Of a stretch of DNA of 64,000 nt, positions 14,676-17,640 are shown one piece after another. The notes beneath the pieces are model-generated. The model did no database searches. It was given only the letters and a program-made list of their open reading frames with translations, and was not told the origin of the DNA. The stretch spans positions 1-64,000 of the forward strand of contig JACJGO010000008.1 in assembly GCA_014163555.1 (NCBI GenBank), in the 5' to 3' direction. The stretch's first letter is position 1. Each line of letters begins with the position of its first letter. Both the position numbers and the translations under genes were made by a program. This stretch comes from Flavisolibacter longurius (GTDB lineage Bacteria; Bacteroidota; Bacteroidia; Chitinophagales; Chitinophagaceae).

Positions 14676-16394
14676 TCAATTTAATCGTCGTGCTAAAACG
14701 ATCGTATGCTTAAAACTTTGTTTTTTTCCTTCCAGGTTAAAAATCTCGGTATAAACGATATAAGTGCCGATGGGCAGTTTGTTCTGGCGTTCGCCAAGGC
14801 CATCCCATTTCCAAAAGCCTTTTTGTGAAAGCAGGTCATTTTTTACAAGGTAACGCACCAGCCGACCCGAAGCGTCAAAAATGGATACGTTGGCTACATA
14901 GCCTGTTTCCGCAAGTTGATACTGAATGGTGGCTACATCGTCAACGCCATCGCCATCCGGTGAGAATACAGGTGGCGAAACGGAGACGGTTGCTCCGGTA
15001 ATTTCGTTTGTACGGTACTGTGAGTTCTGATAGCCCGGCGTTCCGTATCCGGCCGTAGCGGCGGCCGAGTGCCAGTTGTTCCTGTTTTGTGTGGGTGCTG
15101 CCGGATCGATGCGCTCCAGGGAAACGCCTTCCGGTTCATTGATCAGGGCAAAATGCCAGTCTTTGTGATAGGCCAGTTCATCCAGCACATCACCAGTACT
15201 GTTGAGCAGTATAATAGTTCCCTTGGCTTCCGGATAAGAAGGGAGCGATGAGATTTGCAACACGGCCGCTTCGTTTTTCACATGGTATGCTTTCGAGAGA
15301 GCTCCCTTGTCTTCCGTAACCACAAAAAACTCTCCCGGAAATAGATAAGCAGGCGCTTCGGAAAACCTTTTTGGTGAGGCAGCTGTCCCACTGGTGGCCC
15401 AATTGGCTACATAAAGGGCGGCGGCATCAATGATCTTGTTGCTGCGGTTATACACTTCCACATAGTCCGATATTCCCGGCCCGGGGTTGAACAAAATCTC
15501 ATTAATGACAACATCTCCAGCAACTGCCGGTTGGGGTATTCCCAGCTTTGCTTTATTAAAGGTGCTGATTGCATTGCCGTTGCAGTCGGTAATGTTGCTG
15601 ACCGTCACTGTATGTACCTGCCCTTGTTGTAAGGGTGTACTCAGTTGCAACTGTACCTGCTGAAAGAGGGGCGGGAGCGGGGTCGCTGCGGTAACGTTTA
15701 TTCCCTGCACAGAAAAGTTAGAGGCGATGGCTGCGCTATTGCTGTCAAGCGGTTCGTCAAACTGAAGCACGGCTTGCTCACTGGTAAGCACAAACGCTTT
15801 TTTTAATTGTGGTGGTGTGTTATCGACATTGTTTCCCCGCACCGCATTCGGTTGACCCGGCGTGCCGCCAATACTATTGGTACTGGCCTTCCAGTTTTCC
15901 TTCCCTGTGCAGGGATTAGCCAGATCAATCATTTCCAGGCTCCAGCCACCTTCCTGCTTTATTGCATTATCATACCAGGAACTGCTGTACGCCACCGCAT
16001 GAATCACCGCATTTTGCGGCGAACGCAGCGCCAGCAATTCGCCATCATTGTCCAGTGAAGGAAAGGAAGTAATGCCTATTGTTCGTCCGAATAAGACAAA
16101 CTGCGCCACATTACTGTTGGCACAAAGAATAACGGCGCTGTCGGGCTGCAACAGAAAAGAGGTGCTGATAGTCGCCGTGCCGGTGGCATCGCTGATGCGC
16201 CAGCCCTGCAGGTTGTAGGGTGTTGCAGAAACGTTCCTGATTTCTATATACTCTGCATTGGGAAGGCCCACAGCAGGCGTGGGATCGGCCATAATCTCCG
16301 TGATCAGGAGGTCAAAACGCCGGGCTGTTTGTGCCGGAACAGAAAGGGCCATGGCCATAGCCAGGGCAGCAAGCAGTAGTTTGGCGAGAGGCAT
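14676..16394 (-). CDS. Secreted lamin-tail-domain protein with FlgD-like C-terminus
   Basis: Product of 572 aa from the ATG at 16394, which starts a signal peptide (MPLAKLLLAALAMAMALSVP, cut near AQ). Residues about 25-190 form one lamin-tail domain (LLITEIMADPTPAVGLPNAE...YIEIRN...GWRISDATG), followed by a Big_5-like beta domain (PPQLKKAFVLTSEQAVLQFD). A second lamin-tail domain follows (DVVINEILFNPGPGISDYVE). The C-terminus holds FSPDGDGVDDVATIQYQL and GFWKWDGLGERQNKLPIGTY, a FlgD/CHU-type end common in exported Bacteroidota proteins. Probably a surface or outer-membrane-associated structural protein. Enzymatic residues were not seen. It is divergent from asd. Confidence 0.8.
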   Translation of the reverse strand: MPLAKLLLAALAMAMALSVPAQTARRFDLLITEIMADPTPAVGLPNAEYIEIRNVSATPYNLQGWRISDATGTATISTSFLLQPDSAVILCANSNVAQFVLFGRTIGITSFPSLDNDGELLALRSPQNAVIHAVAYSSSWYDNAIKQEGGWSLEMIDLANPCTGKENWKASTNSIGGTPGQPNAVRGNNVDNTPPQLKKAFVLTSEQAVLQFDEPLDSNSAAIASNFSVQGINVTAATPLPPLFQQVQLQLSTPLQQGQVHTVTVSNITDCNGNAISTFNKAKLGIPQPAVAGDVVINEILFNPGPGISDYVEVYNRSNKIIDAAALYVANWATSGTAASPKRFSEAPAYLFPGEFFVVTEDKGALSKAYHVKNEAAVLQISSLPSYPEAKGTIILLNSTGDVLDELAYHKDWHFALINEPEGVSLERIDPAAPTQNRNNWHSAAATAGYGTPGYQNSQYRTNEITGATVSVSPPVFSPDGDGVDDVATIQYQLAETGYVANVSIFDASGRLVRYLVKNDLLSQKGFWKWDGLGERQNKLPIGTYIVYTEIFNLEGKKQSFKHTIVLARRLN

Positions 16395-16434
16395 ATCAAC
16401 AATATAAAAAATTTTGTATAAAATGGAAAATGGA

Positions 16435-16466
16435 TTTGGCGTCAACTCTTTTCTGAATTACATTCG
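16435..16466 (+). promoter_or_regulatory. Candidate promoter of the asd leader
   Basis: TTTG (16435-16438), 20-base spacer, TACATTCG (16459-16466), one base off TAnnTTTG. Transcription would start near 16472, almost at the ATG of the leader peptide, which would then be close to leaderless. Confidence 0.5.
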
Positions 16467-16473
16467 CAAACAC

Positions 16474-16536
16474 ATGAACGGAGCTAAACACACAAAACGC
16501 ACAAAGAAACCGGTTCTCGAAAGGGAAGGTGTGTAA
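16474..16536 (+). CDS. Candidate asd leader peptide (Lys/Thr-rich, 20 aa)
   Basis: A short frame beginning ATG AAC GGA GCT and ending TAA. Residues 5-12 read KHTKRTKK, so four Lys and two Thr codons lie in eight positions; Lys and Thr are end products of the pathway that asd feeds. The stop codon is 25 bases before a terminator-like hairpin. Bases 16522-16529 within the frame (AGGGAAGG) are exactly complementary to 16564-16571 (CCTTCCCT), which overlap the left arm of that hairpin. This is the architecture of a transcription attenuator. No homologue was checked, and short frames arise by chance, so the call is based on arrangement. Confidence 0.6.
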   Translation: MNGAKHTKRTKKPVLEREGV

Positions 16537-16561
16537 CGTTTTGTATGTCGATATACTTACG

Positions 16562-16589
16562 AGCCTTCCCTGACCGGAGGGCTTTTTTT
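16562..16589 (+). terminator. Candidate attenuator terminator upstream of asd
   Basis: Stem AGCCTTCC with GGAGGGCT (8 pairs, one G-T), 6-base loop, then seven T. It lies between two divergently transcribed genes and 31 bases before the asd ATG, so it cannot end a normal rightward gene; a leader role fits best. Confidence 0.75.
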
Positions 16590-16620
16590 ATTGTTCATTA
16601 AACCATCAAATAAAAGAAAC

Positions 16621-17640
16621 ATGAAAGTTGCAGTTGTTGGCGCCACCGGCCTTGTTGGTACCAAAATGTTACAGGTTCTTGCCGAACGGGCTTTTCCCGT
16701 GGATGAACTCATTCCCGTCGCTTCCGAACGTTCCGTTGGAAAAGAAGTGGAGTTCAAGGGGAAAAAATACAAGATCGTTAGCCTACAGGATGCTATTGCC
16801 TTAAAACCGGCCGTTGCCATTTTTTCTGCCGGCGGCAGCACTTCCCTGGAGTGGGCCCCCAAATTTGCCGAAGCCGGCATTACGGTTATTGACAATTCTT
16901 CTGCCTGGCGGATGGACCCTGCCAAACCTCTGGTAGTTCCTGAAGTGAATGCCGACATTCTTACAGCGTCCGACAAGATCATTGCCAACCCCAATTGCTC
17001 TACCATTCAAATGGTTGTAGCCCTGCAACCCCTTCACAAAAAATATAAGATCAAACGTGTTGTTGTTTCTACTTATCAAAGTGTAACAGGCACTGGCAAA
17101 AAAGCGGTTGACCAGCTTTTTAACGAACGGGATGGCAAGGAAGGTGAGATGGCCTACAAATATCCCATTGACCTGAACGTGATCCCGCAGATTGATGTTT
17201 TCCTCGATAATGGCTACACCAAGGAAGAAATGAAGATGATGAATGAAACCAAAAAGATCATGGGGGATGATTCCATTCGTGTTACCGCCACAACCGTTCG
17301 CATTCCGGTAATCGGTGGCCACAGCGAAAGCGTAAACATTGAATTTGAACAGGACTTTGACCTGGCCGAAGTAAAACAGATCCTGAGCGAAGCTCCCGGC
17401 GTGGTGGTGCAGGACGAACCTGCGCAGCAACAATACCCGATGCCGCTCTGGGCCCATGAAAAAGATGAGGTATTTGTTGGCCGCATCCGCCGCGATGAAA
17501 CGCAGCCCAATACCCTGAACATGTGGATCGTGAGCGATAACCTGCGCAAAGGCGCCGCTACCAATGCGGTTCAGATTGCGGAATATCTCCTGCAAAAAGG
17601 CATTCTGCAGCAGGAAGCGTCTTTGTCTGCCGCCTTGTAA
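16621..17640 (+). CDS. asd: Aspartate-semialdehyde dehydrogenase
   Basis: Product of 339 aa, normal length. It reduces aspartyl phosphate to aspartate semialdehyde with NADPH, the branch point to lysine/diaminopimelate, threonine and methionine. Seen directly: NADP-binding MKVAVVGATGLVGTKMLQVL at the N-terminus, SAGGSTSLEW, the catalytic Cys motif IIANPNCSTIQMVVAL (about residues 120-135), STYQSVTGTGKKAV, and the active-site His region IPVIGGHSESVNIEF. The ATG at 16621 is used because MKVAVVGATG is the family start; a TTG ten codons upstream falls just after the T run of the leader hairpin. Probably controlled by the upstream leader. Confidence 0.96.
   Translation: MKVAVVGATGLVGTKMLQVLAERAFPVDELIPVASERSVGKEVEFKGKKYKIVSLQDAIALKPAVAIFSAGGSTSLEWAPKFAEAGITVIDNSSAWRMDPAKPLVVPEVNADILTASDKIIANPNCSTIQMVVALQPLHKKYKIKRVVVSTYQSVTGTGKKAVDQLFNERDGKEGEMAYKYPIDLNVIPQIDVFLDNGYTKEEMKMMNETKKIMGDDSIRVTATTVRIPVIGGHSESVNIEFEQDFDLAEVKQILSEAPGVVVQDEPAQQQYPMPLWAHEKDEVFVGRIRRDETQPNTLNMWIVSDNLRKGAATNAVQIAEYLLQKGILQQEASLSAAL

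Follow-up and report, generated by a model that had tools for sequence, protein, structure and literature searches.

The aspartate-semialdehyde dehydrogenase gene (asd) in the 64,000-nt stretch of DNA analysed here (the window) is very probably controlled by a ribosome-mediated transcription attenuator that would respond to lysine, with threonine. The original prediction placed between two divergently transcribed genes a promoter-like element, a 20-codon frame with KHTKRTKK at codons 5 to 12, a block inside this frame and, before asd, an intrinsic terminator with an exact complement of the block. All of these elements are present (Table 1): both promoter boxes have been located upstream of the frame, the frame is correct base for base, the exact complementarity has been confirmed by direct reading, and the neighbouring ORF lies on the minus strand. 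The product of the downstream gene scores 450 bits against NCBIfam TIGR01296 (cut-off 324), with NF011456 also above its cut-off. The reading of these elements as a leader-peptide attenuator is supported by conservation, by co-variation, and by the position of all 31 strong genome-wide matches before asd or dapA. An additional helix, absent from the original prediction, is formed by pairing of the codons (strand 1) with a strand following the antiterminator block (strand 3); strand 1 consists of the codons for His-Thr-Lys and part of that for Arg, and its pairing with strand 3 contains one mismatch. A sigma-70 promoter scan was uninformative (2 sites vs 1.6 expected).

Table 1. Features of the asd leader in the window, and leaders of the same kind at other loci
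Feature	Position	Strand	Remarks
Promoter -33 element, TTTG	16435-16438	+	By eye; Bacteroidota-type
Promoter -7 box, TACATTCG	16459-16466	+	By eye; 20 nt between it and TTTG
Leader peptide ORF, MNGAKHTKRTKKPVLEREGV	16474-16536	+	20 codons; ATG 16474-16476, stop TAA 16534-16536
Putative regulatory codons, KHTKRTKK (Lys, Thr)	16486-16509	+	Leader codons 5-12
Strand 1, CACACAAAACG	16489-16499	+	Overlaps regulatory codons; predicted partner strand 3 (swap test)
Strand 2, putative antiterminator block, AGGGAAGG	16522-16529	+	Within ORF, right before stop; predicted partner strand 4
Strand 3, CGTTTTGTATG	16537-16547	+	Complement of strand 1 (alignment covariation, swap test)
Intrinsic terminator	16561-16589	+	Hairpin 16561-16584, T-run 16583-16589; -14.3 kcal/mol
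Strand 4, CCTTCCCT	16564-16571	+	Exact complement of AGGGAAGG
Strand 5, terminator 3' arm	about 16576-16584	+
asd, aspartate-semialdehyde dehydrogenase	16621-17640	+	Putative controlled gene; start ATG 16621
Neighbouring divergent ORF	14676-16445	-	From the ORF list
dapA leaders	L125 (G099), L137 (G159), L145 (G148), L146 (G161)
His leader before hisG, MNKNVHIHHHALPNG	L164:479-526; own genome G000:C43, about 117978		Terminator GGCTTACCC...GGTAGGCC and complementary block
Trp leader before trpE, MKMISNKFWWWHTNSFGVL	L157:1327-1441; own genome G000:C15		With terminator

Transcription would start a few nucleotides upstream of the leader ATG, and the ribosome would trail RNA polymerase along the leader ORF. 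When charged Lys- and Thr-tRNAs are ample, the ribosome would arrive at the stop codon and cover strand 2, so that the terminator hairpin (4:5) would form and asd would be turned off. Scarcity of charged Lys-tRNA, and less strongly that of charged Thr-tRNA, would make the ribosome stall on KHTKRTKK and occupy strand 1, leaving strand 2 free to pair with strand 4 before strand 5 has been made, and asd would be transcribed. If the leader is not translated, the codon strand would pair with strand 3 and loop out strand 2, which presumably favours termination.

Conservation was followed in 99 asd loci, of which 19 come from 17 of 18 genus genomes, those giving a match, and 80 from named genomes, being the best 80 of 572, among which the closest records are mostly titled Chitinophagaceae. 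A script demanding a leader ORF with three or more Lys or Thr per eight residues, plus a terminator, was positive in 73 loci, and 70 remained after removal of L011, L014 and L083 by hand; the terminator is present in all 70 aligned leaders by construction, since selection required one. These 70 leaders were used to build a covariance model (R1), which was run on the remaining 29 loci and L018; this added the leaders of L005 and L013, located on the other strand, and weak matches in L014 (34.7 bits) and L045 (32.8 bits). Too little upstream DNA is available in five loci (L016, L017, L026, L043 and L065). Among the 94 informative loci the leader is clear in 72, weak in two and absent from 20, and the frame, the complementarity and the terminator, which were expected to be conserved in relatives, are so in the 72, with co-variation. 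The leader-bearing loci are mostly of Chitinophagaceae. Of the 17 genus genomes, 12 have a strong leader and one (G007) a weak leader with few Lys/Thr codons; the remaining four (G001, G008, G010 and G017) have none, and the 20 leaderless loci, these four genomes included, count against the attenuator reading. In a tree of asd from 76 named rows, 61 of them with leader (L045 included) and 15 without, the label requires 5 changes vs 14 when labels are shuffled; among rows with Sphingobacteriaceae or Saprospiraceae in their titles, the leader is seen only in L094, a metagenome bin under the name Sphingobacterium thalpophilum. In L018 and L042, leader and terminator are retained despite distances of 283 and 328 nt from terminator to asd.

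R1 was also searched over 148 genomes of the order at any genomic position. Among the same-family genomes listed, 27 of 32 were matched, each with E 4.8e-7 or better; these are not an independent sample because some of them supplied R1 training loci. Matches in 20 other genomes of the order reached at most 43.6 bits, and in three of these, outside the family (L141-L143), no leader was found on reading. Same-family matches of at least 50 bits number 31, of which 27 precede asd and four precede dapA, which encodes the enzyme following Asd towards Lys, as judged from N-terminal motifs; the gene downstream of L145, the sole dapA checked by NCBIfam, was identified by TIGR00674 (298 bits, cut-off 206). 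Four genomes (G099, G148, G159 and G161) have the leader before both asd and dapA. L144 and L147 were considered as second asd copies and rejected, as the other strong match in those two genomes precedes dapA. A search of 198 genomes of the phylum with R1 matched five of the eight same-family genomes listed; five other genomes gave weak matches (51 bits at most), among which L201, L202 and L204 resemble the ends of upstream genes. The genome of the window itself (5.66 Mb) has 37 R1 matches, and 14 weak ones besides asd were read (L101-L114, minus-strand ones unturned); they were rejected as asd-type leaders, L102 being a His leader and the others looking like plain terminators. No attenuator was found upstream of dapA or hom of this genome, or in two ilvD loci.

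Lys accounts for 24% and Thr for 13% of all residues in the 70 leaders. At least three Lys per eight residues are found in 66 of the 70, at least three Thr in 18 and at least three Ile in 3, although these counts are partly by construction and biased upward because the filter demanded three or more Lys or Thr in eight. Of the Lys/Thr sensing codons proposed originally, both kinds are conserved, and the proposal is refined in that Lys is the dominant leader codon and Thr a secondary one. Codon usage was analysed in the 60 leaders to which an anchoring pattern for core codons 1-4 could be applied. The Lys codons AAA/AAG are used in 54/6, 34/20, 11/41 and 40/6 leaders at core positions 1, 4, 7 and 8, respectively, and Thr is encoded at core codon 6, which is outside this pattern, by ACA in 12, ACC in 12, ACT in 7 and ACG in 3 of the 60. 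Mean entropy at codon positions 1, 2 and 3 is 0.40, 0.73 and 1.10 bits over all eight core codons, and about 0.63, 1.15 and 1.42 over the pattern-free core codons 5-8. The leader frame has coding character, with Lys and Thr kept through synonymous changes.

It is quite conceivable, though we incline against it, that the same attenuator senses Lys alone and the Thr codons are passengers, with Thr being sensed at thrA by a Thr/Ile-rich leader of its own. The excess of Lys-rich over Thr-rich leaders is as expected from this, as is the presence of Asn or Ile at core codon 6 in at least 17 of the 60 leaders; the four dapA leaders have at most 1-2 core Thr (e.g., KKNTKRSKK and KKYNKVSKK), and a Thr/Ile-rich short frame precedes thrA in 13 of 14 genus loci. 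On the other hand, Thr occupies core codon 3 in 51 of the 60 leaders, at a position favoured by the anchoring pattern, and core codon 6 in 34 of the 60, where all four synonymous codons are used.

The spacing of the elements is also conserved. The distance from the first nucleotide of the last core Lys/Thr codon to block 2 is 11-28 nt (median 16; at least 11 in 70/70), and block 2 overlaps, again in 70/70, a span of -13 to +17 relative to the first stop-codon base, which corresponds to the size of the ribosome footprint. In all 70 leaders these distances fit a stalled ribosome that would leave strand 2 free and a ribosome at the stop codon that would reach it. Block 2 starts before the stop codon in 44 of the 70 and 1-6 nt past its first base in 26, and two such arrangements with one outcome would be expected if ribosome position were under selection. 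Upstream, a TAnn[TC]T[TC]G box is found in 67 of the 70 leaders, with TTTG or TTGG at the right distance before it in 61 of the 67, and the consensus given in PMC9723704 is TAnnTTTG. The first in-frame start codon follows the box by 4-10 nt in 65 of the 67 leaders, and in the window the leader ATG likewise lies a few nucleotides after the -7 box. Because the start codon is so near the box, the 5' end of the transcript is probably within a few nucleotides of the leader ATG, which would make it nearly leaderless.

RNAalifold on a MAFFT alignment returned four terminator pairs only, a low yield probably caused by misalignment of strand 3, and alignment-free swap tests were therefore used, in which partners were permuted 5000 times among 60 leaders. 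Cognate 1:3 pairing amounts to -10.29 vs -7.88 kcal/mol for permuted partners, and 2:4 pairing to -12.65 vs -11.35 kcal/mol, each reached by 0/5000 permutations; sequence relatedness is controlled in part only, through the control pairs 1:4, 2:3 and 1:2, which were reached by 217, 4956 and 4709 of 5000. In the alignment, 0/500 shuffles attained the covariation score of 1:3 and 8/500 that of 2:4, while pairs changed on both sides give a weak signal (88/500 for 1:3 and 137/500 for 2:4). The predicted antiterminator 2:4, which would be exclusive with the terminator, is backed by this co-variation, and a wiring of 1:3, 2:4 and 4:5 is supported. RNA from position 16522, downstream of a ribosome on Lys11, is predicted to fold into the antiterminator (-20.0 kcal/mol) as long as the 3' arm of the terminator has not yet been made; once the arm has been made the terminator is best (-22.1 vs -20.0 kcal/mol). 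With the ribosome at the stop codon, the RNA remaining downstream of it (from 16552) is predicted to fold into the terminator (-14.3 kcal/mol), and the ribosome-free whole leader has an antiterminator fold of -32.4 kcal/mol vs about -30.5 kcal/mol for protector and terminator folded apart and summed. As the alternative folds are close in energy, the order of synthesis must decide between them, and the switch would be kinetic.

A detector requiring an ATG-started ORF with four or more Lys or Thr per eight residues, together with a terminator and a complementary block, was positive in 66 of the 70 real asd upstream regions, which had been preselected by the looser Lys/Thr filter, vs 0/280 dinucleotide-shuffled copies, and in 0/31 hisG and trpE upstream regions of the same genus. 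A terminator alone would lower asd expression and AAA codons arise easily in AT-rich DNA, yet the failure of every shuffled region to reproduce the leader, together with synonymous codon drift, co-variation and spacing, makes it very improbable that a fixed terminator merely lies behind an accidental A-rich frame whose translation plays no regulatory part.

A structured and conserved RNA located before genes of the Lys pathway might also bind a metabolite or protein, as a lysine riboswitch, a T-box or a new aptamer, and so govern the terminator. In the whole window, nothing except a tRNA reached the Rfam gathering score, and six asd loci gave only three sub-threshold matches, including Phe_leader in L003 (28.1 bits, gathering 55, E 0.58) and L20_leader in L067, far from the leader site. 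Beyond these, matches to Thr_leader or other Rfam leaders, covariance matches to the lysine riboswitch or T-box, and matches to the asd motif RF01732 were found neither in the window at gathering score nor in the six loci. Lysine riboswitch and T-box were rejected on this ground, and a binding RNA in general is just as improbable as a fixed terminator, for it is codons, spacing and complementarity that are conserved, with no obvious aptamer-like core. Least probable of all is a functional basic micropeptide, which was rejected as well: the KHTKRTKK core is conserved, but peptide length and C-terminus vary, and the stop may lie beyond block 2 or ahead of it (44 and 26 of 70, respectively), whereas the distance between block and core is kept.

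The Lys-dominant attenuator resembles the thr, his and trp attenuators of Proteobacteria, for which Rfam holds Thr_leader, Trp_leader and others, in that an ORF is rich in codons for the product amino acids, antiterminator and terminator are exclusive, and the codon strand takes part in a protector helix. It differs from them in its genes (asd and dapA), its Lys-dominant codons and the lack of an Rfam match. In Proteobacteria, moreover, the antiterminator strand is the 3' strand of the protector helix, whereas in the asd leader it would lie in the loop of that helix; this interleaved wiring may be a variant of the known plan. An attenuator-like sequence of asd was reportedly described in Streptococcus mutans by Cardineau and Curtiss in 1987 (cited in PMC2864571), and the asd motif RF01732 is assigned to Lactobacillales. 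Both are leader RNAs before asd, as here, but belong to another phylum. Within Bacteroidota, the Bacteroid-trp motif RF01692 presumably holds a Trp leader. The motif is listed in PMC2864571, and leader-peptide attenuation has been suggested for amino-acid operons of Flavobacterium psychrophilum (PMC9723704, in excerpt); these too are leader peptides before amino-acid operons of the same phylum, although the excerpt on F. psychrophilum does not name an asd or Lys leader. Short frames in long 5' UTRs are noted in Bacteroides in an excerpt of PMC7366714. No earlier description of an asd or Lys leader of this type was found in the open-licence literature, and an earlier report may exist elsewhere; the kind of switch is already known, and the asd/Lys example appears new within the literature searched.

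Leaders of similar outline are found before other amino-acid genes. All 16 hisG loci of the genus have a His-rich leader upstream (15 by script; L169, with a GTG start, by eye) and all 15 trpE loci a WWW leader, with the same order of codons, block, codon-complementary strand and terminator. Pairing of 1:3 is better than with shuffled partners in the his leaders (-7.3 vs -4.9; 15 loci, L177 missed) and in the trp leaders (-13.7 vs -8.2; 15 loci), where the control pair 1:4 is also better than shuffled (-10.2 vs -8.0). Swap tests were not significant for either his (1:3, 2676/5000; 2:4, 1946/5000) or trp (1:3, 352/5000; 2:4, 570/5000), so that these comparisons point to an asd-like wiring more weakly than in the asd leader. 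An Rfam scan of two trpE loci gave Trp_leader RF00513 below gathering (30.0 and 28.1 bits, gathering 41), and RF01692 was not among its results.

At thrA of the genome of the window (L160:1081-1164, G000:C58), an upstream Thr/Ile-rich frame (...GITITTTTIR) ends in a perfect inverted repeat, CAATCCGC-TAAC-GCGGATTG, with no T-run, and no terminator was found before this gene; a CATATT..CC..TGGGC-like stretch lies downstream of the thrA frame in several genus loci. In another family, a frame MKNQKTNITCMCMMKTALSGEG with a terminator is found upstream of a CysH-like ORF (499 nt) in L200 (G231:C6:42687-42812), a possible Cys/Met leader. A frame ending in VISLVIIRVIGISYRSGKAIC with a terminator is found 22 nt before an IlvD-like ORF in L203 (G341:C1:1685500-1685559, minus strand), possibly an Ile/Val leader; both genes were named by eye.

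The fuller picture, in which a Lys-dominant attenuator wired as 1:3, 2:4 and 4:5 controls asd and dapA from a nearly leaderless transcript and shares its outline with the leaders of hisG and trpE, has close to an even chance of being right, if slightly under it. If true, the first ribosome would be tightly coupled to RNA polymerase in these bacteria, and amino-acid synthesis in Bacteroidota would be under a general control by leader peptides whose plan differs from the one used in E. coli. A conserved regulatory RNA can be named for the gene at the Lys/Thr branch point, and in some genomes for dapA too, in a large environmental family. Since attenuation requires translation in step with transcription, the leader would be a natural reporter for coupling in Bacteroidota, and the asd, his and trp leaders taken together suggest an entire regulatory layer for amino acids.
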